54,115 nt of DNA, from NCBI GenBank assembly GCA_017744795.1, contig JAGIAQ010000050.1:1-54115 (forward strand), written 5' to 3'. Position numbers and translations under genes: made by a program. The first letter of the stretch is position 1, and each line of letters begins with the position of its first letter. Of the stretch, positions 1,236 through 47,864 are shown piece by piece. A model generated the notes under the pieces. It was given only the letters and a program-made list of their open reading frames with translations, did not search any database and was not told where the DNA came from. The DNA is from Niabella sp. (lineage in GTDB: Bacteria > Bacteroidota > Bacteroidia > Chitinophagales > Chitinophagaceae).

Positions 1236-1643
1236 ATGAACAGACCCATTCGTGTTTTGGTTGCTAAAATCGGCCTGGACGGCCACGATCGTGGTGCAAA
1301 AGTTATCGCTACCGCTCTCCGCGATGCAGGCATGGAAGTGATCTATACCGGCCTGCGCCAAACCCCGGAAATGGTGGTGAATGCAGCCTTGCAGGAAGAT
1401 GTGGATGTTATTGGCGTTAGCATTCTCAGCGGTGCCCATATGACAGTATTTCCAAAAGTTATTGACCTGATGCATCAAAAACAGATGGACGATGTACTGC
1501 TCATCGGCGGCGGCATTGTTCCGGAAGACGACGCCGCACAGTTGCTGGCAATGGGCGTCGGAAAAATATTCGCCCCCGGAAGCACCACACAATCTATTTC
1601 AGAATATATAAAAGGAGAAGTGGCTAAAACCCGCAACTTTTAG
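1236..1643 (+). CDS. cobalamin-binding subunit of a methylmalonyl-CoA-type mutase (stand-alone)
   Basis: A 135-aa protein consisting only of a B12-binding Rossmann-like domain. The signature DGHDRG (residues 15-20) supplies the base-off/His-on ligand His17. A later SILSGAH and a GGG turn (IGGGIVP) match the conserved SxL and GG motifs. Such small subunits pair with a separate acyl-CoA mutase large subunit (methylmalonyl-CoA or isobutyryl-CoA mutase) that rearranges the carbon skeleton. No large subunit is encoded in the window. ATG 1236 is chosen over GTG 1230 because the -7 element overlaps the GTG. The TAG stop forms part of a heptamer-repeat tract that fills the space to proS. Confidence 0.88.
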
Positions 1644-1713
1644 TTACGGGTTACAAGTTACAGGTTCCAGGTGGTCAAACAAACCAGAAACTTGAAACCT
1701 GTAACCTGCAACC
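1641..1713. repeat. heptamer-phased hairpin tract between the B12 gene and proS
   Basis: The plus strand carries consecutive 7-bp units of the form RGTTNCA (AGTTACG, GGTTACA, AGTTACA, GGTTCCA) from 1642. From 1679 to 1713 come five units in the opposite orientation (for example TGAAACC, TGTAACC, TGCAACC). The arms can pair into a long imperfect hairpin. The tract starts in the stop codon of the B12 gene and ends one base before the proS stop, so it occupies the whole convergent gap and may terminate transcription from both sides. Confidence 0.75.
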
Positions 1714-1714
1714 G

Positions 1715-3190
1715 TTAATACGCCCTTGCAAACAATACCCGCTCTTTCGACGGCTGCCCTGAAAGAATACAAACGCCGTCTTCCTGCGGATTATCCAGCG
1801 GAATACAGCGGATCGTTGCTTTCGTTTTTTCTTTGATGGCTTCTTCGGTTTCAGCAGTGCCATCCCAGTGAGCAGATACAAAGCCTCCTTTTTCATCCAG
1901 CACTTTTACAAAATCGTCCCAGGTATCCACTTTGGTAATGCTATCCTGCATGAATTTGCGTGCCCGCTGCAACATTTCAAACTGCATTTTTATCAACAGG
2001 CCGTCTACATACTGGGAAATGCCATCCAGGTTGATAGTCTCTTTTTCCCGGGTGTCGCGTCGCGCCACTTCGATTTTATTGTTCTCCAGGTCGCGCGCGC
2101 CCAGTACCAGGCGTACTGGCACGCCTTTCATCTCGTACTCAGCAAATTTCCAGCCCGGCCGGGTATTATCGTTGTCGTCATATTTTGCCCGGATGCCCTT
2201 GCTTTTCAGATTCTCAAGGATCTCATTGGCCTTGGCATCGATCAGGTCTTTTTGTTCAGGGCCTTTATAAATAGGGATGATCACTACCTGCAAAGGAGCG
2301 ATCCGCGGGGGTAATACCAACCCTTCATCATCGCCGTGCGCCATGATCAGCGCTCCTACCAGTCGGGTACTCACGCCCCAGCTGGTGGCCCAAACATATT
2401 CCTGCTGGTTTTCTTTATTTAGGAACTTTACGTCAAACGCTTTTGCAAAATTCTGTCCCAGGAAGTGGGAGGTTCCCGCCTGTAATGCTTTGCCGTCCTG
2501 CATCAGGGATTCTATACAATAAGTATCTTCGGCACCGGCAAAACGCTCGCTCGCTGTCTTTACACCCTTTATCACCGGCAGCGCCATAAACTCTTCCGCG
2601 AAAGTGGCATATACATCCAGCATTTTGCGCGCTTCTTCAACAGCTTCATCACGCGTTGCGTGTGCGGTATGCCCTTCCTGCCATAAAAATTCGGCTGTGC
2701 GTAAAAATAAGCGGGTGCGCATCTCCCAGCGAACCACATTCGCCCACTGGTTGATCAGCAACGGCAGATCGCGGTACGACTGTATCCAATCTTTATACGT
2801 GCTCCAGATAATGGTTTCACTGGTCGGTCGTACAATCAGCTCTTCCTCCAGCTTTGCTTCGGGATCCACTACCACACCTTTTCCATCCGGGTCATTTTTC
2901 AACCGGTAATGTGTAACAACAGCGCATTCTTTTGCAAAGCCTTCCACATGGGCGGCCTCCTTGCTTAAAAAGCTTTTTGGGATGAACAGCGGGAAATAAG
3001 CGTTAACGTGGCCGGTATCCTTAAACATTTTATCCAGCGCATCGCGCATATGCTCCCAAAGGGTAAATCCATAGGGTTTTATAACCATACATCCCCGTAC
3101 GGCAGAATAATCGGCCAGGCCACCTTTAATTACCAGGTCATTATACCATTGCGAATAATCCGCTGCTCTTGAAGTAACTTCCTTGCTCAT
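1715..3190 (-). CDS. proS: prolyl-tRNA synthetase (archaeal/eukaryotic type)
   Basis: A 491-aa class II aminoacyl-tRNA synthetase that charges tRNA-Pro. Conserved segments include [14 protein letters not shown] near the N-terminus, motif 2 around RPTSETIIW, and [16 protein letters not shown], the class II motif 2 loop typical of ProRS. The protein ends in ARAY; the C-terminal tyrosine is typical of the archaeal/eukaryotic-like group, as is the length and the lack of the ~180-aa editing insert found in E. coli-type ProRS. The start is ATG at 3188-3190. The gene faces the B12-binding gene and diverges from the lipoprotein gene at 3404, leaving a 213-bp intergenic region with no clear promoter match. 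Confidence 0.96.
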
Positions 3191-3403
3191 GTGTTGCTAT
3201 TAAAAATAAATTTGTTGCGTTTTCCGCAGTTTTTCCGTCCTTTATCTGTGTAAAAACAACTTATTTTGCATCCAATTTAACAAGGGATACGTCATTTATT
3301 AACTTAACTTTACACAGAATTGCAAAGGTATATCTAAAACATTAAGAATTAACTGCAATTGCCTGTTAAAAATTGAAAACGAGAACATTTAAATACCGCC
3401 AAA

Positions 3404-4441
3404 ATGAATCTTAAAACACTTTTTTCTCTGTTGGCGTTTACACTGCTTCTGGGTAGCTGCGCAACCGCTTATAAAACCGGGCAAACGCCGGACGATGTAT
3501 ACAATTCCCCCCCTCCCCCGGCTGATGAATATGCCAATGTGCGCAAACAGGATGACAAGCGTTACCGCGCCTATGAATCGGGTGATGAGGAAGACGAATA
3601 TGCAGATTATGACGACCGCTACCTGCGGATGAAAGTGCGCAACCGTTATTTATGGTCCGACCTCGATGACTGGTATTATTACGGCAACCGGTACAATTTC
3701 AGCTATTATAACAACTGGAATTACTGGAACGATCCTTTTTACTGGAACAGCCCCTGGTCTCCCGTGGGCTACTGGAATATGTATTACAACCCCTATTATC
3801 CCGGTTTTGGCTGGGGTGGTGGCTTTGGCCTGGGCTATGCCTGGGGATGGGGCGGTTACTATAACCCCTGGTACTCCGGCTGGTATGGAGGTTTTGGCTG
3901 GGGCGGCGGCTGGTTCGATCCCTGGTACACCGGATGGTGGGGCAGCCCTTATTACTATGGTTACGGACCGGGAGTTATTGTAGGCAGCCGGGTTAATTAC
4001 CAGCAAAGACGTACGAATTTAAACACCTATAATGCGGCAATACTGAACGGAAGGGGCGCAGGCGTGCAAGCCGATGCGGACCGCAGAATACTGAGCAATG
4101 CTAACGGTGTTTTAAGAGAAACGTCCGGCGGCACCACCACAACCCGGAGAACTACCGGTAATTATGGTGAGTCCTTTAGTACCTACGGCGTGCGCACCAA
4201 CAGCAGCGTTAATACCAACGCTGCCAACTCCAGTTCGCAGGGAAGATCCGATGCCCTGCGCAGTCGTTTCAGCCAAAGCACTATTTCTAACAGAACCGTT
4301 GAAAACTATACCCCACAGGTAAACCGTTCCACCGATTACAGCAGACCTTCTACGCCCTCTTATTCACCACCCGCCTCATCAGGCAGTAGTGGTGGCAGCA
4401 GCGGCGGAAGCAGTGGCGGCGGAAGTGGCAGAAGATTTTAA
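3404..4441 (+). CDS. Tyr/Trp/Gly-rich lipoprotein of unknown function
   Basis: A 345-aa exported protein. The N-terminus is a lipoprotein signal with lipobox LLGSC (Cys at residue 19). An acidic segment (about 35-75) follows, then a low-complexity block (about 85-190) dominated by Tyr, Trp, Asn, Gly and Pro, for example YYNNWNYWNDPFYW. The C-terminal part is Ser/Thr/Asn-rich and ends in SGGSSGG-type repeats. No catalytic motif is recognised. Composition suggests a surface-anchored disordered or adhesive protein, but this is inference. Only 18 bp separate it from the OmpP1-like porin gene downstream, so the two are probably cotranscribed. Similar aromatic-rich lipoproteins occur in Bacteroidota as hypothetical proteins. 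Confidence 0.75.
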   Translation: MNLKTLFSLLAFTLLLGSCATAYKTGQTPDDVYNSPPPPADEYANVRKQDDKRYRAYESGDEEDEYADYDDRYLRMKVRNRYLWSDLDDWYYYGNRYNFSYYNNWNYWNDPFYWNSPWSPVGYWNMYYNPYYPGFGWGGGFGLGYAWGWGGYYNPWYSGWYGGFGWGGGWFDPWYTGWWGSPYYYGYGPGVIVGSRVNYQQRRTNLNTYNAAILNGRGAGVQADADRRILSNANGVLRETSGGTTTTRRTTGNYGESFSTYGVRTNSSVNTNAANSSSQGRSDALRSRFSQSTISNRTVENYTPQVNRSTDYSRPSTPSYSPPASSGSSGGSSGGSSGGGSGRRF

Positions 4442-4459
4442 TATTAAAAACTACTATTG

Positions 4460-5977
4460 ATGAAGAAAATCATACTGGCAGGTTTGTTGTTAACCGCTGC
4501 AAACTATCTTATAGCGCAAACCCCTGAGGACGCCTTACGTTATTCCTGGTACCCCGCGCAGGGCTCTGCGCGCGTTCAGGCATTGGGTGGCGCCAGTGGC
4601 TCTATAGGAGGCGAAATCTCCACCCTTTTTACCAACCCGGCCAACCTGGGATTCTATAAAACAGGTGATGCCGTTATCTCCGGCGGATTAAATACTATCG
4701 GTAATAAAGCTACTTATTACGGTCAAACAGTGAAGGATTCCAAAACAAGCGGTTTCCTGGGCACCAGCGGTATTGTTTTTGCCAATACCACCCGTGGCGA
4801 CCGTGCATTGAAAAGTTCCGCCTTTAGCGTTGGGATTACCCGCGTGGCAGATTTTAATAATAGTATCGAATACAACGGGCTGAATCATAAAAGTTCCATG
4901 GCCGATATGTTCCTGCAGCGCATCCAGGGGGATGGCGGGTCCCTGGCTACTTATGACACCAAGCTGGCATACGATGTAAACTGGGTAACCAAGGACGGCA
5001 ATGGCAATTATTTTTCACCCGCCGACGCGATCGTTGCCAGCACCGGTATCCAGCAGCACGGACAATTGAAATCAGAAGGAGGTATTACTGAAATAGCGGT
5101 AGGTGGCGCAGCCAACCTCAATGACAAGCTTTACCTGGGAGGTTCCGTGGGCATGCCCATTCTTCGCTACCGGGCGACACGCATTTTTGACGAGCTTGAC
5201 CCCACCAGCAATGCAAGCAATCAATTTGATGCGGCTCAGTTCGACGACTATCTGACCACAAAAGGCATGGGTATCAACCTGAAACTGGGCGCTGTATTTG
5301 CCCCGGTTCAGAATTTCCGGGTCGGGCTTTCGGCCATTTCGCCCACCTGGTACACGCTTACAGATACCTACGATGCGCGTGCATGGGCCAATACCGAAAA
5401 CCTTCCGCAGAATGGCGGCAAGAACGATGTGGAATCCCGTCCGAACGAAGCCTCCGTTTATGATTATGCCTTACAAACCCCTTATCGCTTAATGGGTAGC
5501 TTCACCTATCTTTTTGGGAACCTGAATAATGTTACCAGCCAAAAGGGTTTGGTTACTGCCGATGTGGAGTACGTAAATTATATGTCGTCCCGGTTCCGGA
5601 CCGTATCAAGCAACAACGGATCTTCCGACGTATCGTATTTTGACGGACTGAATACAGCAATTGGTAACGCATATAAGGGCGCCGTAAATGCACGACTGGG
5701 CGCCGAATTAAAATTCAACACTTTTATGGCCCGTGTAGGCGGCGCTTATTACGGTAACCCTTACAAGGACCTTGCCGGAGAAAAAGGAAATGTGTACCAG
5801 GGCACCGCGGGAGTAGGTTATCGTAACCGTGGATTCTTTATTGACCTTGGTTATGTGTACACTGCTAAAACAGATGTGTATTATCCTTACCGTCTTGAAA
5901 ACAGAAACAGCTTTGATCCGGCAAACATCAAGTCGAATGGCTCAAGGATCGTGCTGACGCTGGGCGTGAAAATCTGA
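4460..5977 (+). CDS. OmpP1/FadL-family outer membrane transport protein
   Basis: A 505-aa outer membrane beta-barrel protein with an N-terminal signal peptide (cleavage near IAQ/TPEDALRYS). The conserved N-terminal plug region is present: ARVQALGGASGSIGG followed by LFTNPANLGFYKTG, the FadL/OmpP1 hatch motif. Alternating aromatic beta strands continue to the C-terminus (RIVLTLGVKI). Relatives move hydrophobic compounds such as fatty acids or aromatics across the outer membrane; the substrate here is unknown. ATG 4460 is preferred over the in-frame TTG at 4457. It follows the lipoprotein gene closely and ends before a strong terminator. Confidence 0.85.
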   Translation: MKKIILAGLLLTAANYLIAQTPEDALRYSWYPAQGSARVQALGGASGSIGGEISTLFTNPANLGFYKTGDAVISGGLNTIGNKATYYGQTVKDSKTSGFLGTSGIVFANTTRGDRALKSSAFSVGITRVADFNNSIEYNGLNHKSSMADMFLQRIQGDGGSLATYDTKLAYDVNWVTKDGNGNYFSPADAIVASTGIQQHGQLKSEGGITEIAVGGAANLNDKLYLGGSVGMPILRYRATRIFDELDPTSNASNQFDAAQFDDYLTTKGMGINLKLGAVFAPVQNFRVGLSAISPTWYTLTDTYDARAWANTENLPQNGGKNDVESRPNEASVYDYALQTPYRLMGSFTYLFGNLNNVTSQKGLVTADVEYVNYMSSRFRTVSSNNGSSDVSYFDGLNTAIGNAYKGAVNARLGAELKFNTFMARVGGAYYGNPYKDLAGEKGNVYQGTAGVGYRNRGFFIDLGYVYTAKTDVYYPYRLENRNSFDPANIKSNGSRIVLTLGVKI

Positions 5978-6004
5978 GATGTGTTTTAAATTTGGTTATA
6001 AAGG

Positions 6005-6031
6005 CCTCCCGATTTTTCGGGAGGTTTTTTT
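6005..6031 (+). terminator. rho-independent terminator after the porin gene
   Basis: Perfect 8-bp stem CCTCCCGA/TCGGGAGG with a TTTT loop, followed by a run of seven T. It lies 28 nt after the porin stop codon. Confidence 0.9.
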
Positions 6032-6064
6032 AGACCTATAAGGTTTCGAAAACCTTATGGGTCT
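6032..6064. repeat. GACCTATAAGG-type hairpin repeat, copy 1
   Basis: Fourteen-base arms (6032-6045 and 6051-6064) pair with one mismatch around a short loop. The core is GACCTATAAGGTTT. Similar hairpins lie at 42615-42654 and 53001-53030. It sits 8 bp beyond the mutL stop and back-to-back with the porin terminator. Confidence 0.7.
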
Positions 6065-6072
6065 CTCTCAGG

Positions 6073-7938
6073 TTAACGCCCGAACATCTTCTCAATCTGC
6101 TCCTGCTTAAATTCAAGATAGGTAGGGTTACCGTCGGGGGAAGTGTTGTAAGGCTCGCATTGAAACAGGTCGGCAACCAGCCCGCGCAATTCGCGTTCAG
6201 TTAACCGGTTACCTTTCTTAACTGCCCGCTGGCGGGCCAGTGAGCGGATCAGCTTCTCCCTGTTGGAAACCCGTATGTCACTGTTAAAATGTTTGTATTG
6301 CTCCAGGGTGAAATCGATCAGTTGCTTCGGATCGGTATCGTCCAGGTCGGCAGGGGTGCCCTGCACCACAAAACTGTTGTTGCCAAAAGGTTCGATCTGG
6401 TAGCCCAGCAGCAGCAGATCGGCCAGCAGTTCGTTTAATAAAACCGTATCCGTTGGTGTTAACTCCAGTGTAACCGGGAACATCGATTGCTGCACCACCA
6501 CAGGTGTTCCGGCAGCAGCCTGCTTCATCTGGTTATACAATACCCGCTCGTGCGCTGCCTGCTGATCGATCAGCAAAAAGCTGCGTTCCACCGGCATAAT
6601 AATGTAGGAGTTTAGCACTTGCTCCAGGTGGGTATCCTCTCCGATCTCAATGCCGCTTTTCTTTTTTTGGATGGCCAGGTATTGCTGTTCGCTTTTTTCA
6701 TAGTCGAACACGGCTTCTTCTTTTTTAACCGGCTCATAAAATTCCTTCCAGCTTTTCAGTTCCCCGGCAGAAGGCTTTTCAATAAAATGCGCCTGGTTTT
6801 TCTGGGTGAATCCTTTGTACAAAGAGCCGCCGGTTATCTGCTCTTTTTTTTCTGTGGTAAAAGGCTGACTTACGGAAGGTAATTGTTGAATAGAAGCGTC
6901 CAGGTCAAAATCAAGTGTGGGGGTAATACTGAATTGCGCCAAAGCATGCTTTATTGCAGCCTGCACAAATGCATACACAATTTTTTCATCTTCAAACTTT
7001 ATTTCCTGCTTGGTGGGATGCACGTTTACGTCCACCTGTGTGGGATCCAGATCGATAAATAAAACATACATGGGAAAACTATCCGAGGGAATTAGTTCCT
7101 GGTAGGCGTTCATCACGGCATGATTCAGGTAGGCGCTTTTGATAAACCGGTTGTTCACAAAAAAATACTGGTCACCCCGGGTTTTCTTAGCCGTTTCGGG
7201 CTTACCTGTAAAACCGTGGATATTCATGTACGCCGTATTGTCGTTAACGGCCACCATTTTTGAATTATAGTTATTGCCCAGTAATTGTACAATGCGCTGC
7301 TTCAGACCCGCCTGCGCCGCTGCCAGGCTTCCCGGCTCCAGGTGCATCAGCTGCTGTCCGTTGCTGGTAAGCGTGAATTTAATATGCGGATACGCCATCG
7401 TAACCCGCGTAAACTCGTCTACAATATGCCGCATTTCAGCCGCATTGCTTTTTAGAAAATTCCGGCGCGCCGGGACGTTAAAAAACAGGTTTTTCATGGC
7501 CAGACTGGTACCATTGGGCGCCGCCACAGGTTCCTGTTTTACCACAACACTGTTGGCTACCTCAATAAAAGTTCCGGTTTCGTCCTCCGGTCGTTTTGTT
7601 TTTAATTCAACCTGTGCCACAGCGGCAATCGAAGCCAGCGCCTCTCCGCGAAAGCCCATAGTTCGTACATGAAAAAGATCATCGATATTGCGGATCTTGG
7701 AAGTGGCATGCCGTTCAAAGCACATCCGGGCATCGCTTTCGCTCATACCGCTGCCGTTGTCGATTACCTGCAATAATGTTTTGCCTGCGTCTGTTACAAT
7801 TAATTGGATGGATGTAGCTCCTGCATCTACGGCATTCTCCAGCAATTCCTTTACCGCGCTGGCGGGGCGTTGGATCACTTCGCCGGCCGCGATCTGGTTA
7901 GCAATATTATCGGGTAATAACAGGATCTTATCAGGCAC
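6073..7938 (-). CDS. mutL: DNA mismatch repair protein MutL
   Basis: A 621-aa GHKL ATPase that links mismatch recognition by MutS to strand removal. The N-terminal ATPase motifs are complete: NQIAAGEVIQRPASAVKELL with ENAVDAG (residues ~10-40), DNGSGM, and GFRGEALASIAAV. The C-terminal half is the dimerisation domain with QQAAHERV and a late CEP segment (QCEPYNTSPDGNPTYLEF). The C-terminal domain lacks an obvious DQHAxxExxxxE endonuclease motif: the aligned segment reads DQQAAHERVLYNQ, so the classical form needs an alignment to settle. The start is GTG at 7936-7938, because an in-frame TAG lies three codons upstream. Uma2 lies upstream on the same strand. Confidence 0.95.
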   Translation of the reverse strand: MPDKILLLPDNIANQIAAGEVIQRPASAVKELLENAVDAGATSIQLIVTDAGKTLLQVIDNGSGMSESDARMCFERHATSKIRNIDDLFHVRTMGFRGEALASIAAVAQVELKTKRPEDETGTFIEVANSVVVKQEPVAAPNGTSLAMKNLFFNVPARRNFLKSNAAEMRHIVDEFTRVTMAYPHIKFTLTSNGQQLMHLEPGSLAAAQAGLKQRIVQLLGNNYNSKMVAVNDNTAYMNIHGFTGKPETAKKTRGDQYFFVNNRFIKSAYLNHAVMNAYQELIPSDSFPMYVLFIDLDPTQVDVNVHPTKQEIKFEDEKIVYAFVQAAIKHALAQFSITPTLDFDLDASIQQLPSVSQPFTTEKKEQITGGSLYKGFTQKNQAHFIEKPSAGELKSWKEFYEPVKKEEAVFDYEKSEQQYLAIQKKKSGIEIGEDTHLEQVLNSYIIMPVERSFLLIDQQAAHERVLYNQMKQAAAGTPVVVQQSMFPVTLELTPTDTVLLNELLADLLLLGYQIEPFGNNSFVVQGTPADLDDTDPKQLIDFTLEQYKHFNSDIRVSNREKLIRSLARQRAVKKGNRLTERELRGLVADLFQCEPYNTSPDGNPTYLEFKQEQIEKMFGR

Positions 7939-8034
7939 TGTGCACTATTTGTTGAACGCGTAAAGGTACAGTTTACTGCCTATATCTTTTAAAGCAAGGG
8001 CTTGTAAATTTCGATTATGTGCTATGTCAAGGAT

Positions 8035-8577: not shown

Positions 8578-8629
8578 AGCAGCAAGTTACAAAATAAATG
8601 GCTATATCAGCAATCCGCAACAAATCAAC

Positions 8630-15504: not shown

Positions 15505-15583
15505 GTGCCTGCAAAATACTAAAGAAATGTAAATTGTAAAATAATCAATAAGAAATGTAAAATAATGCTGAACGTAAAACGCC

Positions 15584-15629
15584 CAATGGTCAATAGATCC
15601 CCCATTCACTATTGACCATTGACTATTGA
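15584..15629. repeat. heptamer-phased hairpin tract upstream of gmk
   Basis: Left units CAATGGT and CAATAGA (15584-15597); right units CTATTGA, CCATTGA, CTATTGA (15609-15629). Thirteen bases of the left arm (15584-15596) are exactly complementary to 15609-15621. It lies between the surA-like terminator and gmk. Confidence 0.75.
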
Positions 15630-15657
15630 CATTCTTCATTTTATAGCCTTACCGGCC

Positions 15658-15693
15658 AAAAAATACGGCCTGCATCGAGCAATCGTGCAGGCC
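15658..15693 (-). terminator. terminator of the surA-like gene
   Basis: Perfect 8-bp stem GGCCTGCA/TGCAGGCC (15667-15674, 15686-15693), followed on the minus strand by GTA and six T. It lies 27 nt after the stop codon at 15721. Confidence 0.75.
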
Positions 15694-15720
15694 TCAATCA
15701 ATTCTGTATTAATTCGTTAT

Positions 15721-22310: not shown

Positions 22311-22752
22311 CTTTATACTTATCGTCTCCATTCTGCGATGCAACACGCTGCTTTACAAATAGATATGCATAATCTTTCGAAAAGGCTCCGTTCATACCTG
22401 GCATAATGTCATTGTCGATAATATCCTTTGCAAAAGTCGCCTCGCGGCGTCAAAACCGCCATTCGGCTTGATTTGACCTTTCACTCCCCGGCGTAAACCC
22501 TTCTAAGCAACAATCAGTTTCAAGCAGTGTGATTATCTTTTTATCGGAATGTTTTTTCAAAAATTGCACTCGTAATAATTAGTAAGATTCAGGGACTGTA
22601 CGTTCAGATACTTCTTTTGTCGATTAAGAAATATCAAAAAAGAACGAACACTGAATATTTCTAAGATAATGTCCTTCTACATTTCTTATTCAGTATTTCT
22701 TATTCTACATTGCCCGGAATGCCGCGCATAAGCAAGCAACATCCAATACTAA
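22311..22752. other. 442-bp gene-free interval with a possible gene remnant
   Basis: No convincing gene. On the minus strand one frame is open from about 22449 to a TGA at 22303-22305 (48 codons) and reads like protein (FAKDIIDNDIMPGMNGAF), overlapping the last bases of the DUF4834 gene. A second minus frame further out also reads like protein for about 35 codons before a stop. This could be a decayed gene. The right part (22626-22715) is a heptamer-phased tract. Confidence 0.3.
22626..22715. repeat. heptamer-phased hairpin tract downstream of the SnoaL-like gene
   Basis: Left units such as AAGAAAT and AACACTG (22626-22660). Right units ATTTCTT, ATTCAGT, ATTTCTT, ATTCTAC (22681-22708) in the opposite orientation. 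The phase is clear on the right arm and looser on the left. Confidence 0.55.
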
Positions 22753-27726: not shown

Positions 27727-27734
27727 CGTATAGT

Positions 27735-27790
27735 TCATGGATCATGGTTCATAGCAATACAAACCATGAACAATGAACCATAAACAATGA
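27735..27790. repeat. heptamer-phased hairpin tract between the phosphatase gene and hisS
   Basis: Left units TCATGGA, TCATGGT, TCATAGC (27735-27755). Right units ACCATGA, ACAATGA, ACCATAA, ACAATGA (27763-27790) in reverse-complement orientation. The tract ends 10 nt before the hisS ATG, so any structure would be in or next to its leader. Confidence 0.75.
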
Positions 27791-27800
27791 ACTAAAAAAA

Positions 27801-29207
27801 ATGAAACCATCCCTACCACAAGGAACAAGAGATTTTGATGCGGCAACAGTGCGCAAACGCAATTATATTTTTACCACCATAAAAAATGTTTTTGAATTGT
27901 ATGGTTTTCAACCACTGGAAACCCCGGCCATGGAGCAATTGGAGACCTTAATGGGCAAATATGGTGAAGAGGGCGATAAACTTATTTTTAAGATCTTAAA
28001 CAACGGGCTGGACAATGCCGACAAGGCAGCAAAAGTGAAGGCCGGATTTGAAAAGGTTCTGGAAGGCAAGTCCAGCACAACTATTACCGAGCGGGCCTTG
28101 CGCTACGATCTAACTATTCCCTTTGCCCGTTATGTGGCGATGAATTACAATCAGCTTACACTTCCTTTCAAGCGGTACCAGCTGCAGCCGGTGTGGCGTG
28201 CCGACCGCCCGCAAAAAGGCCGCTACCGCGAGTTTTACCAGTGCGATGCAGATGTGGTGGGCAGCAAATCTTTGCTGAATGAACTGGAGCTGGTAGCGAT
28301 GTACGCCACCGTTTTTGACCGGTTGAACCTACCGGTTGAGATACGACTGAACAACCGGAAAATATTGACCGCACTGGCCGAGCAATGTGGCGGAGCAGAT
28401 AAAATGACCTCAATCGCCATTGCAATTGATAAGCTGGACAAGATCGGGATGGACAAGGTAAAAGAAGAATTGCAGCAGCGCGGATTATTAGAAGAACAGA
28501 TCCTCCTGATCCAGCGCTTTCTTGAGATCAATGGAACCAATGAAGAGAAACTGGCCACGCTGAGATCTATTTTCTCCGGAAACGAAACGGGGGAAACCGG
28601 GATTAGTGAGCTGGAATATATTATTCAAACGTCAAACGTCAAACGTCAAACGTCGAACACGAAACATCAGATATCAGACATCGAACATCAGACATTGGTG
28701 ATCGATCCTACGCTGGCCCGCGGATTAAACTATTACACCGGAACCATCTTCGAGGTGAAAGCTTTGAACGTAAAAATCGGCAGCATTGGCGGCGGCGGCC
28801 GGTATGATGACCTTACCGGCTTGTTTGGCGTGCCCAACGTGCCCGGGGTGGGCATTTCCTTTGGCGTAGACCGTATTTATGACGTGCTTACCGAGATTAA
28901 CGGGTTCCCTGCCGATGTTCATACCGGCACCCAATTATTATTTTTTAATTTAGGTGAGCTGGAGGCATTGAAGGCTTTTGACCTCATGCAACAATTGAGG
29001 GCAAAAGGGATTCCTGCTGAATTGTTTCATGAACCGGCGAAATTTGACAAACAATTTAAATACGCAGAGCGGAAAGGCATTCCATATGTGGCTATTTTAG
29101 GTTCCAAAGAGCTGGAATCGGGCGAAGTGGTTGTAAAAAATTTAGCAACCGGCACCCAAACGCCGCTGTCTTTTGCCGCCCTGACAGATTTTTCTTTTAC
29201 CAAATGA
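27801..29207 (+). CDS. hisS: histidyl-tRNA synthetase with a heptamer-repeat insertion
   Basis: A 468-aa class II synthetase charging tRNA-His. Motifs: LPQGTRDFDA at the N-terminus, ERALRYDLTIPFARYVA, RPQKGRYREFYQCDADVVGS (motif 2), LARGLNYYTGTIFEV and GGGGRYDDL, with an anticodon-binding C-terminal domain. Between EYII and VIDPTLARG (residues about 275-298) the DNA consists of ten tandem 7-bp units, translated as three seven-residue repeats beginning QTSNVKR, QTSNTKH and QISDIEH. The frame is kept, and both flanks match normal HisRS, so the enzyme is presumably active with an added loop before the catalytic HisA motif. Confidence 0.95.
   Translation: MKPSLPQGTRDFDAATVRKRNYIFTTIKNVFELYGFQPLETPAMEQLETLMGKYGEEGDKLIFKILNNGLDNADKAAKVKAGFEKVLEGKSSTTITERALRYDLTIPFARYVAMNYNQLTLPFKRYQLQPVWRADRPQKGRYREFYQCDADVVGSKSLLNELELVAMYATVFDRLNLPVEIRLNNRKILTALAEQCGGADKMTSIAIAIDKLDKIGMDKVKEELQQRGLLEEQILLIQRFLEINGTNEEKLATLRSIFSGNETGETGISELEYIIQTSNVKRQTSNTKHQISDIEHQTLVIDPTLARGLNYYTGTIFEVKALNVKIGSIGGGGRYDDLTGLFGVPNVPGVGISFGVDRIYDVLTEINGFPADVHTGTQLLFFNLGELEALKAFDLMQQLRAKGIPAELFHEPAKFDKQFKYAERKGIPYVAILGSKELESGEVVVKNLATGTQTPLSFAALTDFSFTK
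28625..28694 (+). repeat. ten tandem heptamers inside hisS
   Basis: Exactly ten 7-bp units without gaps: four TCAAACG, two TCGAACA, two TCAGACA, one CGAAACA and one TCAGATA. All are translated in frame. Unlike the intergenic tracts, no inverted second arm is present. Confidence 0.9.
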
Positions 29208-41609: not shown

Positions 41610-41772
41610 TTGATCAGGTTTATAGACGGCAAAAGTAAGACTTCTTTACAAGATACCAATTTTTTCCAACTTTGGTTAAAATTAACAAAAAATCTTTATT
41701 TGAGAAAACATTGTTACTGAACCCGTTTTTCAAAAAAAAATCGCACTTTTGCCATCTAAATTTATTTAGTTT

Positions 41773-42609
41773 ATGGCCACATTGCAGGAAATAGCTTCCC
41801 AGGTAAGAAGAGATATTGTCAGAATGGTTCACGGAGCCAACAGCGGTCACCCGGGAGGGTCTCTGGGCTGTGCTGATTTTTTGACTGCTCTGTACTTTAA
41901 GGAAATGAAAATCACCCCCTCACCCTTTAGTATGGATGGTGTAAACGAGGATCTTTTCTTCTTATCGAACGGCCATATTTCTCCTGTATTCTATTCCGTT
42001 TTAGCCCGTGCCGGCTATTTTGATATTAAAGAATTGGCTACTTTCAGAAAGATCGACAGCCGCCTGCAGGGGCACCCCACCACGCACGAACATCTTCCGG
42101 GTGTGCGCGTGGCCAGCGGTTCCCTGGGACAGGGGATGAGCGTGGCTATTGGCGCAGCATTAAGCAAAAAATTAAATAATGACCCTTGCCTGGTGTACTC
42201 TCTGCACGGAGATGGTGAACTGAACGAAGGGCAGAACTGGGAAGCCATTATGTTTGCTGCGGCACATAAAGTGGATAACCTTATTTCTACGGTTGACTGG
42301 AACGGTCAGCAGATTGACGGCCCCACCGACAAGGTGCTGAATATGGGCAACCTGGATGATAAATTCCGTTCTTTTGGCTGGGAAGTACTTGAAATGAACG
42401 GCAATGATATGGCCGAGGTAACAGCGACCATCGAAAAAGCCAAATCACTGACCGGAAAAGGCAAGCCCATTGCTATTATGATGCACACTATTATGGGTAA
42501 GGGCGTTGATTTTATGGAAAATGATCATGGCTGGCATGGCATTGCCCCTAATGACGAGCAGCTGGCAAAAGCATTGACAGAGTTGCCTGAGACTTTGGGT
42601 GACTATTAA
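41773..42609 (+). CDS. transketolase, N-terminal (TPP-binding) subunit
   Basis: A 278-aa protein equal to the first half of a normal transketolase. Conserved parts are GANSGHPGGSLGCADF, LSNGHISPVFY, GHPTTHEHLPGV with the GSLGQGMSVAIGAALS TPP-binding region, and HGDGELNEGQNWEA. Split enzymes use a separate C-terminal subunit that completes the active site. That second half is normally the next gene, but here a convergent permease follows instead, so the partner must be elsewhere. Transketolase moves two-carbon units in the pentose phosphate pathway. Its 3' end carries a GACCTATAAGG-type hairpin. Confidence 0.92.
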   Translation: MATLQEIASQVRRDIVRMVHGANSGHPGGSLGCADFLTALYFKEMKITPSPFSMDGVNEDLFFLSNGHISPVFYSVLARAGYFDIKELATFRKIDSRLQGHPTTHEHLPGVRVASGSLGQGMSVAIGAALSKKLNNDPCLVYSLHGDGELNEGQNWEAIMFAAAHKVDNLISTVDWNGQQIDGPTDKVLNMGNLDDKFRSFGWEVLEMNGNDMAEVTATIEKAKSLTGKGKPIAIMMHTIMGKGVDFMENDHGWHGIAPNDEQLAKALTELPETLGDY

Positions 42610-42614
42610 GAATA

Positions 42615-42654
42615 AATAAACCTATGAGGTTTTAAGAACCCTCATAGGTTTATT
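42615..42654. terminator. bidirectional hairpin terminator; GACCTATAAGG-type repeat copy 2
   Basis: Perfect 15-bp arms (AATAAACCTATGAGG at 42615-42629, complement 42640-42654) six nt after the transketolase stop and overlapping the stop of the convergent permease. The core resembles the hairpins at 6032 and 53001. Confidence 0.8.
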
Positions 42655-43873
42655 CGCTTTTTAGCGAAAACTCCCTGCGCGCCGCTTTCCGTGCGGGCAT
42701 CCAGGATGCAACAAACGCAATCACAAACACCGTAAGGGTCACCAGCAGGAAGTCCCGGATCTTTAATTCCACAGGAAAATAATCAATCAAAAAAGACCCG
42801 CCCTGTAAGGGAATGAGATGTAACTGTTGCTGCAACACTACCATGATCAGCGCTAGCACCATCCCGATGCCGCCGCCAATAAGCGCCAGCAGGAACCCTT
42901 CATTTAAAAATATTTTAAGAATAAAGTTACGATCCGCTCCCAGCGCATTTAACACGCTGATGTCTTTTTGTTTTTCCAACACCAGCATGGTCAGCGCGCC
43001 CACCATATTAAAGGCCGCCACTACGAGTATCAAACTTAAAATGGCGTAAAACACCCAGCGCTCCAAATTCATAATGGAATATAAACTTTGATTTTGCTGG
43101 TAACGGTTTTGAAGGGTATATCCTGGTCCGAGTAATCGTTGCAGCGACTGCTGCACCGTTGCGGTACTGGATGGATTGGTGACCGCTATTTCAACCGCCG
43201 AATATTCATTTGCCTGGAGACCGGCTGCATTTTTTAAAAAATCAATATTGGTTATAGCATATTTGGTATCAAAATCCTGCTGAATAACGAATACCCCAGA
43301 ATTGCGGATGGTATCACTGCTGATGCTGGAAGCCTCGTCCAACGCTTCGGTTCCGCCATGACGGGGAATATAGATCGTCATGGGATCTACGTTTTGGCTC
43401 GTTCTCACTCCTAATGAGCTCTGCACCCCGCCGCCGATCACCAAAAAAGGGTGCTCTGTCGTTCCCAGGTCAAAGCGGCCGCTAATGATATGACCCGCGA
43501 TATCATTTACGGATGAAAACCGGCTATCGGCTCCCTTCAGGGTCACCAGCGCCTGGTTCTCCCCGTTTCGGATCAGGGCTTTTTCTTCTACAACCAATGA
43601 GAAATTTTTTATTCCCGAAACACCTTTCAGCTGTTTTAGCTGCTCGTTAGTAAGCGTTAATACCTTGCCTGTAGCAGGCGCCACTTTTATATCAGGGTAA
43701 AAAGAAGAGTAGAGCGATTTTACCAGCCCTTCAAATCCGTTGAACACGCTCAGCACCAAAATCAAAGCTGCCGTGCCTATCATAATAGCCACAATACAGA
43801 TCCATGCAATAATATTAATTACATTGGTGGATTTTTTTGCTCTGAAATAGCGCCAGGCGAATAAGAATTGCAA
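42650..43873 (-). CDS. LolC/LolE-like FtsX-family ABC permease
   Basis: A 407-aa inner-membrane protein. The N-terminus LFAWRYFRAKKSTNVINIIAWI is the LolC/E signature, followed by a helix, a large periplasmic domain (about 50-265) and three C-terminal helices with the conserved VLEKQKDISVLNALGA and ending in PARKAARREF. LolCDE releases lipoproteins from the inner membrane for transport to the outer membrane. The start is TTG at 43871-43873; no in-frame ATG fits. It follows rbfA on the same strand across a heptamer tract. The ATPase partner LolD is not in the window. Confidence 0.88.
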   Translation of the reverse strand: MQFLFAWRYFRAKKSTNVINIIAWICIVAIMIGTAALILVLSVFNGFEGLVKSLYSSFYPDIKVAPATGKVLTLTNEQLKQLKGVSGIKNFSLVVEEKALIRNGENQALVTLKGADSRFSSVNDIAGHIISGRFDLGTTEHPFLVIGGGVQSSLGVRTSQNVDPMTIYIPRHGGTEALDEASSISSDTIRNSGVFVIQQDFDTKYAITNIDFLKNAAGLQANEYSAVEIAVTNPSSTATVQQSLQRLLGPGYTLQNRYQQNQSLYSIMNLERWVFYAILSLILVVAAFNMVGALTMLVLEKQKDISVLNALGADRNFILKIFLNEGFLLALIGGGIGMVLALIMVVLQQQLHLIPLQGGSFLIDYFPVELKIRDFLLVTLTVFVIAFVASWMPARKAARREFSLKSE

Positions 43874-43885
43874 TGATTGATTTTT

Positions 43886-43960
43886 ATGCTGGATGCTTGA
43901 TACCTGATACTCGAGTCCCCTCTGGATAACTGATAACTTAAAACTAAGAACTGGTTACTC
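43886..43960. repeat. heptamer-phased tract between rbfA and the LolC/E-like gene
   Basis: Left units ATGCTGG, ATGCTTG, ATACCTG, ATACTCG (43886-43913). Right units ATAACTG, ATAACTT, AAAACTA, AGAACTG, GTTACTC (43926-43960). The right end runs through the rbfA stop codon; the left end stops 12 nt before the TTG start of the permease. Confidence 0.7.
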
Positions 43961-44335
43961 CCCCGCCTCCCCGTTTTTGTTCCGTTCTTCTTCTATTTTT
44001 TTAAACAAGGCTTCCATTTTAAAGACATGATCCAGTGTATCATCTCCATAAAATTTAAGCACCGGTATATTGCGCAACTGATGCCGTACGGAAGCAGCCA
44101 GCTCTTTTTTTATTTCATGATGGCGGTCTTCAATGCGTTTGAGGGCAGCTGCAGCATCCTTTACCTTGAAGAAACTCAGGTAAAACCGGGCTTCCAGCAG
44201 GTCGGGTGTCACCTTCACCCCGGAAACAGAAACCATTCCCCCATCCAGCATATTCAATCCCAAGCGTTGAAAAATACTGTTTATTTCTTCGTTCAGCAGC
44301 GCCGCTACCTGTTTTTGCCGTTTACTTTCCTCCAT
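43955..44335 (-). CDS. rbfA: ribosome-binding factor A
   Basis: A 126-aa 30S maturation factor with a type II KH fold. The family pattern is ESKRQKQVAALLNEEINSIFQRLG at the N-terminus, VSVSGVKVTPDLLEARFYLSFF in the middle and LRNIPVLKFYGDDTLDHVFKMEALF near the end. The length is normal. In many bacteria rbfA follows infB; here it lies more than 20 kb away, upstream of a LolC/E-like permease, which is common in Bacteroidota. Its stop codon is part of a heptamer tract. Confidence 0.94.
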   Translation of the reverse strand: MEESKRQKQVAALLNEEINSIFQRLGLNMLDGGMVSVSGVKVTPDLLEARFYLSFFKVKDAAAALKRIEDRHHEIKKELAASVRHQLRNIPVLKFYGDDTLDHVFKMEALFKKIEEERNKNGEAGE

Positions 44336-44392
44336 GATCTGTTGTTTCTATTCGCTGTAAAATTAGTTACTTTGTGGGTTTAAATTTATAGA

Positions 44393-46207
44393 ATGAAGAA
44401 ATATTCGAGGGTTTTACATTATTTACGACCCTATACCGGTGGTGTGCTCCTTTATTTTTTATTTACCATCCTTTCGATTGTTTTTGCACTTTTCAGCTTT
44501 GGACTACTGCAGCCTTTTTTTGATATTATTTTCAACGGGAATAAATCGGCCCCTGCCGCCAACGGCAGTACCGACCGCCTGGCAGGGATAAAGGAACATT
44601 TTATCACGCTGATCAATGGCGCCCATTTTACCCCCGTTCAATTGCTGGGTGTGATCTGCATCGTCCTGGTTTTTGCTATTTTCCTGAAAAACCTCTTCCT
44701 ATACCTTTCCTCTTATGTGCTCAATCCCATAAAAAATAAAATTGTTAATAATTTCCGGGAAGATATCTACAACAAAATACTGCAGTTACCCATCGGCTAT
44801 TTTACAGAACAGCGTAAAGGAGATCTTATCAGCCGGGTTACCAACGATGTAAACGAGGTGGAAGGTTCGGTAATCGGTGTTTTAGAGGGCTGGATCAAGG
44901 ACCCTTTGAATATTATCCTGACGCTGGTGGCGCTTTTTGTTATCAGTCCGTTGCTTACGGGCGCGATCCTGGTTTGTATTCCCGCGATCGGTTTTATACT
45001 GGGGCGCATTTCAAGGGCTTTAAAAAAACAATCGAATGAAGCGGCCATAAAACAGGGCGAATCGTTGTCGATCCTGGACGAAACGCTGAATGGGTTACGG
45101 GTAATCAAAGCATTTAATGTGGAAGGTGTGCTGAGAAACCGCTTTGACGCCGTAAACGATGAACTGATGGATGCTAAAAACCGCATCAGCCGGCGCAGGG
45201 ATATGGCCTCGCCGATGTCGGAATTTTTGGGGGTGATGGTATTTGTGGGCATTTTATGGTTTGGCGGGCGGCTGATCCTATCTAATAATATCGACCTGGG
45301 CGCCCCTGCTTTTTTCGCTTACCTGGCGATGTTTTACAACCTGATCAACCCGGTAAAAACCTTATCTACCTCTTTCAGCAACCTGGCCAAAGGAGCTGCG
45401 GCTATTACAAGAATTGAAGAAGTGCTGAACACGCCGGTAACGGTGGATGAAAATCCGGAAGGGAAAAAACTGGAACATTTTGAGCAACAGATCGAATTCC
45501 GGAATGTGGGGTTTGCCTATAATGAACATGTGATCATCAGCAATATTGACCTGACCATAAAAAAAGGACAAACCGTTGCCCTGGTGGGCTCTTCCGGTGC
45601 AGGAAAATCGACCCTGGCCGACCTGGTACCGCGTTTTCATGATGTAACCAGCGGTGAAGTTTTAATTGACGGGGTTAATATTAAAGATTATTCATTGCAT
45701 TCGGTAAGAGAATTAATGAGCATTGTAACACAAGAGCCGATCTTATTCAATGATTCCATTGCCAATAATATCGCCCTGGGGCATACCAGCGCTACTACTG
45801 CCGAAATAGAACAGGCCGCTAAAATTGCCAACGCGCATAATTTCATTATGCAAAAGGAAGCACAGTACGACACTAACATTGGCGACCGGGGCAGCAAACT
45901 GAGTGGTGGTGAGCGTCAGCGACTGACGATTGCCCGGGCCGTTTTAAAAAATCCGCCGATCCTTATTCTGGACGAAGCAACTTCTTCTTTGGATACGGAA
46001 AGTGAACGACTGGTGCAGGACGCCATCAACAAAATGATGCAGAACCGTACCAGCATTGTTATTGCGCACCGCCTGAGCACGATCCGCAATGCGGATGAGA
46101 TCATCGTGCTGCAAAAAGGAAAGATCGTTGAAAGAGGCACACATAACAGCCTGATTGAGCAAAACGGTTTTTACAAAAAGCTCGTGGACATGCAGGAAGT
46201 CAAATAA
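44393..46207 (+). CDS. MsbA-like ABC exporter (fused permease-ATPase)
   Basis: A 604-aa half-transporter. Six membrane helices (about residues 15-320) with the family YFTEQRKGDLISRVTNDVNEVE segment are followed by an ATPase: Walker A GSSGAGKST, signature LSGGERQR, Walker B ILILDEATSSLD and H-loop IAHRLST. The sequence layout fits lipid A flippases of the MsbA group, and the organism makes KDO lipids (kdsB), but other lipid or peptide exporters cannot be excluded. It is divergent from rbfA with a near-consensus TTACTTTG element 18 nt upstream of the ATG. Confidence 0.88.
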   Translation: MKKYSRVLHYLRPYTGGVLLYFLFTILSIVFALFSFGLLQPFFDIIFNGNKSAPAANGSTDRLAGIKEHFITLINGAHFTPVQLLGVICIVLVFAIFLKNLFLYLSSYVLNPIKNKIVNNFREDIYNKILQLPIGYFTEQRKGDLISRVTNDVNEVEGSVIGVLEGWIKDPLNIILTLVALFVISPLLTGAILVCIPAIGFILGRISRALKKQSNEAAIKQGESLSILDETLNGLRVIKAFNVEGVLRNRFDAVNDELMDAKNRISRRRDMASPMSEFLGVMVFVGILWFGGRLILSNNIDLGAPAFFAYLAMFYNLINPVKTLSTSFSNLAKGAAAITRIEEVLNTPVTVDENPEGKKLEHFEQQIEFRNVGFAYNEHVIISNIDLTIKKGQTVALVGSSGAGKSTLADLVPRFHDVTSGEVLIDGVNIKDYSLHSVRELMSIVTQEPILFNDSIANNIALGHTSATTAEIEQAAKIANAHNFIMQKEAQYDTNIGDRGSKLSGGERQRLTIARAVLKNPPILILDEATSSLDTESERLVQDAINKMMQNRTSIVIAHRLSTIRNADEIIVLQKGKIVERGTHNSLIEQNGFYKKLVDMQEVK

Positions 46208-46249
46208 TTACTGATTTATAATTTCTTATTCCTTATTTTCTGTTTATTA
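46208..46249. repeat. possible heptamer tract between the exporter gene and gltX
   Basis: The 39-bp convergent gap divides into units such as TTTCTTA and TTCCTTA in 7-bp phase, but the units are low-complexity TA sequence, so this is a weak case. Confidence 0.35.
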
Positions 46250-47773
46250 TAACAGTCCCAGCGTATGCTGCATCCGCCGGATGGTTTCGTCTTTGCCCAG
46301 GATTGCGGCGATATCAAATACATGCGGACCAAATTTACCGCCTACCAGCATAATACGCAGGGGCAGCATTACTTCTCCCGGCTTGATCTGGTTGGCCGCA
46401 GCAATTTCTTTAAAATTGTTTTCCAGTGTTTGCGCATCCCAAAGTCCGGATAATTCATAATTGCGGATCACCTCATTGAAAAAAAGCTTTTTAGGTTCGT
46501 TCCATTTGGGCTGAATAGCCGCCAGGTCGATCGTTTCGGGCGTTTTAAAGAAATAAGATACCTGGTCATAGAAGTCGGTGAGTAATGTTGCCCGATCTTT
46601 TACCAACTCTATAATTTGCTGCAATTGATGATCGTCTGCAACCGATAACCCACTTGCTGTTAATACGGCCTTTACCCTTTTTGTAAGCTCCTTCGGATCC
46701 AGTTTCTTTATCCATTCATGGTTGAACCATTTGGCTTTTTCATAATCGAACTTCGCCCCGGCGCTATGCACCCGGTCCATAGAAAATTTTTGAACCAACT
46801 CATCTAAAGTGAACAGTTCCTGCGCTGTGCCGTCGTTCCAGCCCAGCAGCGCCAGCATATTGATAAAAGCCTCCGGTAAAAATCCTTTTTCTTTAAACCC
46901 TTCGGTTAGCTCTCCGGTTTTAGGATCCGTCCAGTTCATAGCAAATACCGGGAAGCCATACTTAGCGCCATCCCGCTTGCTCAGCTTGCCGCTGGGGCCC
47001 AGTATCAACGGGAAGTGCGCCCACTTGGGCATATTTTCGATACCAAATAAATACTTCCATAGCAAAACATGCACGGGTGCGCTGGGCAACCATTCTTCCC
47101 CGCGAAACGCGTGTGAAATCTTCATCAGGTGGTCGTCCACTACCACAGCCAGGTGGTAAGTAGGCATGCCATCCGCCTTCAGCAATACTTTATCGTCCAC
47201 CAGGGAAGTATTAAAATTCACCTCACCCCGGATCATATCTGTAAAACCTACCGTTTCATTTTCCGGCATTTTAATGCGAATGACGTGCCGGGTATTGTCT
47301 TTTAATAACTGCGTTACTTCTTCCTTTGACAGCGTCAGTGAGTTGCGCATTTTACTCCGCACATTATGATCATATTGCGGAGAAGGATTTTGCTCTGTCT
47401 TATAATCCCGGCGCATTTTTTCTAATTCTTCAGGAGTATCAAAAGCATAATAAGCCTGCCCGTTTTCGACTAATTGTTCCGCATATTTGCGATACATTTC
47501 TTTGCGTTCACTCTGCCGGTACGGGCCAAAAGCGCCGCCATGCTGCACACTTTCATCCGGCACCAGCCCAACCCATTCCAAACACTGAAAGATATATTCT
47601 TCTGCCCCCGGCACAAAACGGGTCTGATCCGTATCCTCAATTCTTAAAATAAATTCACCTCCATGTTTCCGTGCAAACAAATAATTATATAACACGGTTC
47701 TCACACCTCCTAAATGCAATCCGCCGGTAGGCGAAGGAGCAAAACGCACTCTTACTTTTTTATCAGTTGTCAT
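46247..47773 (-). CDS. gltX: glutamyl-tRNA synthetase
   Basis: A 508-aa class I synthetase that charges tRNA-Glu. The HIGH-type motif lies in RFAPSPTGGLHLGGVRT and the KMSKS-type motif in KLSKRDG. The C-terminal helical anticodon-binding region is complete. ATG 47771-47773 is used, because a TACCTTTG -7 element at 47780-47787 lies just upstream and further in-frame sequence runs toward a heptamer tract. No glutaminyl-specific features are seen. It converges with the exporter gene. Confidence 0.96.
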   Translation of the reverse strand: MTTDKKVRVRFAPSPTGGLHLGGVRTVLYNYLFARKHGGEFILRIEDTDQTRFVPGAEEYIFQCLEWVGLVPDESVQHGGAFGPYRQSERKEMYRKYAEQLVENGQAYYAFDTPEELEKMRRDYKTEQNPSPQYDHNVRSKMRNSLTLSKEEVTQLLKDNTRHVIRIKMPENETVGFTDMIRGEVNFNTSLVDDKVLLKADGMPTYHLAVVVDDHLMKISHAFRGEEWLPSAPVHVLLWKYLFGIENMPKWAHFPLILGPSGKLSKRDGAKYGFPVFAMNWTDPKTGELTEGFKEKGFLPEAFINMLALLGWNDGTAQELFTLDELVQKFSMDRVHSAGAKFDYEKAKWFNHEWIKKLDPKELTKRVKAVLTASGLSVADDHQLQQIIELVKDRATLLTDFYDQVSYFFKTPETIDLAAIQPKWNEPKKLFFNEVIRNYELSGLWDAQTLENNFKEIAAANQIKPGEVMLPLRIMLVGGKFGPHVFDIAAILGKDETIRRMQHTLGLL

Positions 47774-47779
47774 AGCCGG

Positions 47780-47787
47780 CAAAGGTA
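47780..47787 (-). promoter_or_regulatory. -7 promoter element of gltX
   Basis: TACCTTTG on the minus strand ends 6 nt before the ATG at 47773. Confidence 0.55.
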
Positions 47788-47791
47788 GCCT

Positions 47792-47864
47792 AAAGTTCAA
47801 AGTTTAAAGTTTAAAGTTTAAGGTTGGGAGACGAGAAACCTTGAACATCAAACCTTTAACTTTG
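47792..47864. repeat. heptamer-phased hairpin tract between the S9 peptidase gene and gltX
   Basis: Left units AAAGTTC, three AAAGTTT and AAGGTTG (47792-47826). Right units AACCTTG, AACATCA, AACCTTT, AACTTTG (47837-47864) in the opposite orientation. It ends 4 nt before the peptidase stop and begins next to the gltX -7 element. Confidence 0.8.

Follow-up and report, generated by a model that had tools for sequence, protein, structure and literature searches.

Convergent arrays of degenerate heptamers in intergenic spacers of Niabella and other Bacteroidota

The window analysed here (54,115 nucleotides, contig JAGIAQ010000050.1 of the Niabella sp. assembly GCA_017744795.1, family Chitinophagaceae) carries, in several of the spacers between its genes, tracts built of consecutive degenerate 7-bp units, usually as two arms of opposite orientation around a short loop. 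Six such tracts had been singled out in an initial annotation, and on re-reading all of them exist: five are clear (1643–1713, 15584–15630, 27731–27794, 43886–43953 and 47791–47865), each detected with period 7 by Tandem Repeats Finder (TRF), and the sixth, 22618–22712, is the weakest, its arms being 78% complementary and 38 nt apart. At 43886–43953 the two arms belong to different unit classes, and no inverted repeat was detected there by the repeat search. The first tract adjoins a gene (1715–3190) that we take, from its sequence, to be proline-tRNA ligase-like, and a further array (28625–28695) lies inside a presumably hisS-like gene, in a linker whose length and sequence differ in four related genomes (G011, G008, G002 and G006). 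With genes called by a simple open reading frame caller and a threshold of 15/21 matches per segment, period 7 accounted for 9 noncoding and 2 coding segments of the window, where a first-order Markov shuffle gave 0.3; at periods 5, 6, 8, 9 and 10 there were 0–1 noncoding segments each.

The genome that holds the window (G000) is a draft of 4.57 Mb in 241 contigs, 90% complete. The nearest of the 16 other genomes of the genus is that of a sister species (G011), 99% complete and in one contig, in which the protein of 1715–3190 is 97% identical to the window copy and 42 of the 48 genes called in the window have matches, in one reversed order; the closest named record for the same protein, at 81%, is the metagenome genome 'Chitinophagales bacterium 33-2'. 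A wider sample of G000 consisted of 40 contig starts, of which four were all N and were removed; the remaining 36 (487,208 bases) contained 68 noncoding and 12 coding period-7 segments (3.7 after shuffling). Five of these starts lie outside the grid of every sixth contig and were selected after hits had been seen. The 31 on the grid (387,208 bases) still held 57 noncoding and 11 coding segments, and their noncoding counts for other periods were 16 for period 8, 38 for period 14 (a multiple of 7) and 0–3 for each of periods 4–6, 9–13 and 15. Noncoding DNA in the first 400 kb of G011 gave 55 segments for period 7 and 18 for period 8. Around the proline-tRNA ligase-like gene in 80 named loci (titled Bacteroidota, with one Acidobacteria), a stricter threshold of 16/21 recovered 58 noncoding segments with period 7, 24 with period 8 and 2–13 with periods 4–6 and 9–13. 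The heptamer tracts are thereby confirmed as a real, genome-wide feature. Some hairpins in these sequences are octamer-phased or G-rich and also have the G-richer arm first (L125 5172–5262, L149 8775–8870 and 10401–10623 of the window, with motifs TTTGAAAA, GTTTAAAR and GCCGGGAAGGCGG).

Our total sample of G000 came to 899 kb, about 358 kb of it selected for hits to one unit, RGTTNCA; this selected part enters the counts of class arrays, spacer types, arms, unit likeness, polarity, T-runs, haplotypes, phase, divergence and run lengths given below. Clustering of the units revealed recurring classes common to G000 and G011. Eight classes, RGTTNCA, RGTSAAT and RGTTYAT among them, form 7 to 49 arrays each in the 0.9 Mb of G000 when at least three units per array are required, and two more, AAATGTN and GGATNCT, form one array each. 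RGTTNCA heads the list with 49 arrays and 207 units (two arrays for the reversed pattern), a count inflated because of the way the sample was selected. Its units are mostly fixed at positions 2–4 and 6 and free at position 5 in G000, and the same fixed and free positions recur in other genera at loci chosen for the pattern and read around an exact anchor. Among 394 genomes of the family, a 16-base RGTTNCA pattern reaches as many as 523 places per genome in certain genera but has 0–20 in most, the backwards control giving mostly 0–7 places, but 37–58 in three genomes. The RGTSAAT pattern is abundant in partly different genera (244 genomes), so that class abundance varies by genome. In agreement with the initial annotation, the tracts do not form a single repeat family when aligned. 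Its view that each locus has a unit of its own did not hold: since RGTTNCA and RGTSAAT recur at many loci and in several genera, the units are dispersed and not private to a locus.

What unites these classes is a common polarity. We orient each unit by its class and call two arrays head-to-head when they converge. Neighbouring arrays no more than 100 bp apart, in the 115 spacers of G000 and G011 with class arrays (spacers up to a limit of 400–800 nt, depending on the script), were head-to-head in 36 cases, tail-to-tail in 2 and in the same direction in 13 (p 5e-9); both tail-to-tail pairs include AAYGCTN. The ratio of head-to-head to tail-to-tail was 8:1 in the grid and window, 19:1 in the part chosen for RGTTNCA, 2:0 off the grid and 7:0 in G011. 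Because class orientation was set from examples, the count within single classes, 20 to 0, shows consistency across loci. The order is recovered from base composition alone (G minus C), with 24 GC, 2 CG, 11 GG and 7 CC pairs, and among hairpins found by pairing, the G-richer arm came first in 35 and second in 6, the two being tied in 6. Among the remaining inverted repeats of these genomes the bias was smaller (73 to 47, 13 ties; p 0.004 against the phased ones), and the same order prevailed in other genera (17 to 4, at loci chosen for RGTTNCA) and at the 80 named loci (7 to 2). Convergence was independent of gene direction; single arms in tandem spacers were split 21 to 12 (p 0.16). Most arms have 3 to 5 units, the sizes of paired arms are uncorrelated (rho 0.02), and the loop between them has a median of 11 bp. 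The phase of the units is free across the loop and uniformly distributed (p 0.72), which tells against a filament locked across the loop. A tract is thus a pair, or half a pair, of convergent degenerate 7-bp arrays separated by a loop of about 11 bp, the arms being of the same or of different class, and the 7-bp period and two-arm arrangement are conserved genome-wide, between species and in scattered Bacteroidota.

The origin suggested at first for these tracts was that heptamers are expanded locally and then mirrored. Adjacent units are, when pooled, no more alike than units from other loci: the excess in likeness was -0.007 ± 0.005 at lag 1 (n=632), 0.004 ± 0.006 at lag 2 and -0.012 ± 0.007 at lag 3. 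Exceptions by class are found at lag 1, where AAYGCTN neighbours are less alike (0/300 shuffles as low) and YGTYTGA neighbours more alike (p 0.013), and at lag 2, where RGTSAAT (p 0.03) and RGTTYAT (p 0.007) units are more alike. Three-unit haplotypes shared across RGTTNCA loci were not in excess (2 vs 4.2 expected). On the whole, the units behave as independent draws from genome-wide classes and not as products of slippage, and local expansion, with YGTYTGA as an exception, is not supported. Mirroring fares differently from class to class. The arm comparison, like the base-pair counts below, excludes those 25 of 57 hairpins to which no class rule applied. Own arms matched no better than swapped arms in RGTTNCA (n=8 and 11) and CAGTNNT (n=6), and exact mirroring does not hold as a general rule; own arms did match better in RGTTYAT (13/5000 permutations, n=7) and, weakly, in AAYGCTN (430/5000, n=4).

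The sister species keeps most tracts in place and changes some of their contents. Among 89 spacers flanked by orthologous genes in the two genomes, a tract was present in both in 19, only in G000 in 3, only in G011 in 2 and in neither in 65, so that position was kept in 19 of 24. For more distant species the association depends on the threshold: G006 gave p 0.005 at a threshold of 14 (4 spacers with a tract in both, 2 and 1 in one only, 18 in neither) and 0.13 at 15, G002 gave 0.23 and 0.03, and G008 and G010 were not significant. In the orthologous spacers of G011, G006, G002 and G010, where classes were assigned by eye, the spacer 1644–1714 has mixed units within conserved flanks in G011, RGTTYAA in G006 and mixtures of RGTTNCA and RGTTYAA in G002 and G010. 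At 47774–47868 the class has been replaced within conserved flanks, G011 having GGATNCT; it is kept at 43793–43954 and 27727–27848, and the RGTSAAT hairpin of 15505–15720 is missing in G011. Single length differences between G000 and G011 include 14 bp at L030 1245–1329 and 7 bp at L154 7233–7308. The G011 orthologue of the latter array has a short palindrome, CCCGATAGCCATCGGG, inside it that is absent in G000.

Substitutions between the two species follow the structure of the unit. In well-aligned columns, degenerate positions differ at 0.246 and fixed positions at 0.128 (p 2e-4), with other spacer DNA at 0.132–0.154; without the alignment filter the values are 0.145 for fixed positions, 0.179 for other spacer DNA, 0.405 for 4-fold sites and 0.270 for degenerate positions, a figure to which any misaligned units would add. 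In a simulation, neutral change at 0.405 leads to 0.37 at fixed positions. Well below this value and near that of the spacers, the fixed positions are thus kept or renewed to about the same degree as the spacer DNA around them. The arms of the window are listed in the table together with two arrays beyond those first cited.

Table. Arms and arrays of heptamer units in the window (coordinates in nucleotides; left and right arms of a tract on successive lines)
Position	Strand	Feature	Remarks
1643–1672	+	Left arm, RGTTNCA, 4 units	Immediately follows the stop of the + strand gene 1230–1643
1683–1713	-	Right arm, RGTTNCA on minus strand	Extends to the 3' end of the proline-tRNA ligase-like gene 1715–3190
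15584–15596	+	Left arm, RGTSAAT (CAATGGTCAATAG)	13/13 complementary to 15609–15621
15602–15630	-	Right arm, RGTSAAT, 4 units	TRF; not kept in G011
22618–22644	+	Left arm, weakly phased, AAATNAG-like	
22680–22712	-	Right arm, AAATNAG on minus strand	Phased: ATTTCTT ATTCAGT ATTTCTT ATTC
27731–27752	+	Left arm, RGTTYAT	Upstream of the hisS-like gene
27762–27794	-	Right arm, RGTTYAT	Class kept in G011, where 13 columns (about two units) are inserted
28625–28695	-	Direct array, YGTYTGA (TCAAACG, then TCAGACA-like units)	In frame inside the hisS-like gene
43886–43915	+	Left arm, GGATNCT	Same class in G011
43925–43953	-	Right arm, TAACTGA/CAGTNNT type (GATAACT) on minus strand	TRF
46216–46243	-	Single-arm tract, AAATNAG on minus strand	Beyond the sites first cited
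47791–47825	+	Left arm, RGTTYAA, 5 units	
47837–47865	-	Right arm, RGTTYAA	G011 spacer carries GGATNCT instead

Outside these tracts, a stretch of about 200 bp at 987–1200, read by eye, has inverted ends (GTCAGGGCGGACGCATAAATT / AATTTATGCGTTCGCCCTGA) and inner arms of CACGAAT type, and is possibly a small inserted element.

To account for the tracts we propose, with weak commitment and a rough probability of 0.35, that they arise and are renewed when DNA repair copies units in patchwork fashion. A break, most readily at the centre of a hairpin, would leave a pair of 3' ends, both finishing in the G-richer strand; these would then be extended independently, one or two units at a time being copied from tracts elsewhere with frequent changes of template, and would be rejoined. 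Spacers would tolerate such renewal and genes rarely would. In favour of the proposal stand the convergent polarity, found in every subset and whatever the gene direction, the independence of arms and units with the class exceptions given above, the greater divergence of degenerate than of fixed positions, the replacement of classes within conserved flanks, the class abundances that vary by genome and the array in the hisS-like gene. Several results weigh against it. Copying by itself does not account for the G-richer strand standing at the 3' end. The low divergence of the fixed positions in comparison with 4-fold sites may reflect selection. Multiples of 7 are not over-represented among the gap lengths of aligned tracts (6/52 vs 30/416 elsewhere). 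Two-unit haplotypes common to RGTTNCA loci are in slight excess (120 vs 93, p 0.03), which speaks for copying, but the result is marginal and comes from one class. Identical neighbours are depleted in G000 (23 vs 40.8 expected, 7 classes), something that copying does not require, and show no depletion in G011 (9 vs 10.0 expected, 4 classes). The better match of own arms in RGTTYAT fits mirroring or selection for pairing. Lastly Ku, a usual joining protein, is found in 12 of the 17 genomes of the genus and was not found in G000 (90% complete), its presence not tracking tract richness.

A slightly less probable, and in our judgement likewise doubtful, alternative is that the tracts are selected arrays of binding sites, in which a protein that reads DNA in 7-bp steps on contiguous direct or convergent units holds the consensus. 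The fixed positions, far below both 4-fold sites and the neutral simulation, are what it would lead one to expect; units that look like independent draws from a consensus and the near absence of tail-to-tail order also suit it. With one mismatch or fewer per unit and the controls subtracted, runs of four units exceed runs of three (65 vs 45 in G000, 28 vs 26 in G011), but with no mismatches, or without reference to class, run lengths simply fall. The fixed positions are not clearly slower than spacer DNA either, the phase across the loop is unlocked, and a single reader sits uneasily with many classes, class replacement at one spacer, the lack of a link to gene direction and an array inside the hisS-like gene. 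Neither model explains everything, selection not saying why classes interchange. Patchwork copying, to which we lean slightly, agrees with arms and units that are independent, with the replacement of classes and with the array in the hisS-like gene.

Slippage of microsatellites by 7 nt at a time, a mechanism that has been proposed for bacterial heptamers (Mrazek, as cited in PMC4679880 and PMC4692102), appears unlikely here. The dominance of period 7 with period 8 second, the differences of 14 and 7 bp between the sister species and the likeness of YGTYTGA neighbours would all be natural outcomes of it. As a general explanation it is rejected or weakened by the pooled unit likeness and by the depletion of identical neighbours in G000; gaps in multiples of 7 are missing too, and slippage gives neither convergent polarity nor degenerate positions common to several genera.

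A role at the ends of transcripts, which the initial annotation had thought possible, has still less in its favour. RNA hairpins acting as terminators or protecting 3' ends would agree with the fact that in G000 tracts are commoner between convergent genes (29/83 vs 70/422 spacers, p 4e-4), and with the spacer at 42610–42649, which has an ordinary hairpin in the window, G011 and G008 and phased units in G002 and G006 (14 and 13 of 21 matches). No convergent-gene excess was present in G011 (10/67 vs 51/421, p 0.55), and tracts occur in tandem, convergent and divergent spacers alike. A T-run follows 3 of 47 phased hairpins as compared with 32 of 133 ordinary ones (p 0.009), which tells against intrinsic terminators; mismatched pairs on the gene strand of classed hairpins in tandem spacers were G-U in 26 cases and A-C in 24, which gives RNA pairing no support, and pairing in RNA would not demand G in the 5' arm. 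Together with the independence of gene direction and the in-gene array, this argues for a feature at the level of DNA that is tolerated rather than placed, and against hairpins in RNA. The ordinary hairpin at 42610–42649 belongs to a different dispersed kind (AACCTATGAGGTTT ... AAACCTCATAGGTT-like), seen at gene ends also at 5978–6072 and 52953–53038.

The order (G-strand)n(C-strand)m is that of fused telomeres. An improbable, more specific form of repair is that a novel activity spread over Bacteroidota supplies both broken 3' ends with degenerate heptamers of the G-richer strand before they are rejoined; if so, the tracts would be scars of head-to-head order, resembling fused telomeres and left wherever the chromosome is free of genes, and the activity might be shared with Xanthomonas and cyanobacteria. 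RNA-templated addition of heptamers to DNA ends, in the manner of telomerase or of DRT-like enzymes, would agree with that order and would explain independent arms and units born degenerate, and yet we hold it very improbable. The reverse transcriptase domain RVT_1 had no match in G000, G011 and G015, the members of the genus with the most RGTTNCA places (116, 87 and 40), but matched in 7 others of the 17 genomes, with 2–13 places (the control matched in 3/14 genomes). A reverse transcriptase is accordingly not supported as tract maker, its lack in G011 (99% complete, one contig) arguing strongly against a present-day one of that family.

We give almost no credence to REP-like elements moved by RAYT transposases: Y1_Tnp matches 16 of 17 genomes (10 matches in G011) and the one RAYT gene read in G000 (L032 9205–9648) is followed, some 0.3 kb downstream, by a period-7 tract (L032 9919–9953), but none of three RAYT genes examined in G011 has a period-7 segment within 2 kb, where chance would give about 0.5 each, and the two of them with a resolved frame are flanked by other palindromes, as judged by eye; the test is a weak one. 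REP-like palindromes, likewise judged by eye, surround the RAYT-like genes L032 9205–9648 and L255 (G011:C1:777268–777750). The idea that the units echo anticodon loops fits only some classes and was dropped.

The initial annotation knew of no named family for such tracts, and yet convergent degenerate heptamers have already been described in Xanthomonas (Rehm et al. 2015, PMC4692102). Two Xanthomonas genomes have 186 and 183 arrays of degenerate GGGAATC, or (GGGANTN)n, heptamers, mostly intergenic and most often of four units, with 70 and 75 convergent pairs, and the arrays lie mostly between the same genes in the two species with much variation in length and sequence. Both cases share a 7-nt unit of fixed and free positions, mostly intergenic dispersal, convergent pairs and common spacers with changing contents. 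In Xanthomonas there is a single G-rich class, whereas here we find about ten classes, class replacement and a polarity that could be counted; four units are the commonest number there, and are preferred here only weakly and at one mismatch or fewer per unit. Those authors linked the four units to G-quadruplexes and reported a preferred side of the neighbouring gene. None of our ten class consensus motifs contains GGG and each unit has one or two G, therefore a quadruplex cannot be the reason for the architecture.

Our literature search, mostly of open-access articles, found no paper on convergent heptamer tracts in Bacteroidota, the nearest being the study of TAACTGA direct repeats in Beggiatoaceae, cyanobacteria and Bacteroidetes (MacGregor 2015, PMC4679880), which in the orange Guaymas Beggiatoaceae genome lie mostly just before start codons. 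TAACTGA is one of the units of the window (43925–43953) and has a similarly patchy distribution; the repeats described there are direct and precede starts, whereas ours are convergent and have no bias in gene direction. The backwards control of our RGTSAAT pattern is itself a TAACTGA array and, at two mismatches or fewer, is abundant in genomes G062 (167) and G070 (158), counts that possibly extend the reported distribution. The P6b stem of the Nostoc trnL intron (Kaasalainen et al. 2015, PMC4476775) is likewise made up of repeated units of seven nucleotides, TDNGATT or NNTGAGT, and its class is replaced as a whole stem at one locus with similar structure; it is a single locus in a self-splicing RNA that requires pairing, in contrast to many DNA loci without a signal of RNA pairing. 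The Omega (ParB) protein of pSM19035 binds contiguous WATCACW heptads in direct or inverted order (PMC9499535), degenerate 7-bp sites much like ours. They form, however, a plasmid centromere with a known protein, are contiguous across the inversion, where we see a gap with a median of 11 bp, and include tail-to-tail neighbours in the native array, hence Omega does not explain the polarity; Omega_Repress had no match in the 17 genomes, but its control was silent as well.

The closest known kind to the tracts described here is therefore that of the convergent degenerate heptamers of Xanthomonas, to which they belong with many unit types in place of one. The comparison separates the architecture of such arrays, that is the seven-base step, the convergent order and the mixture of fixed with free positions, from any particular sequence and from G-quadruplexes, and shows one polarity holding across classes. 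In this way the old puzzle of why heptamers dominate among bacterial simple repeats becomes testable, as the question of what reads or writes DNA in seven-base steps.

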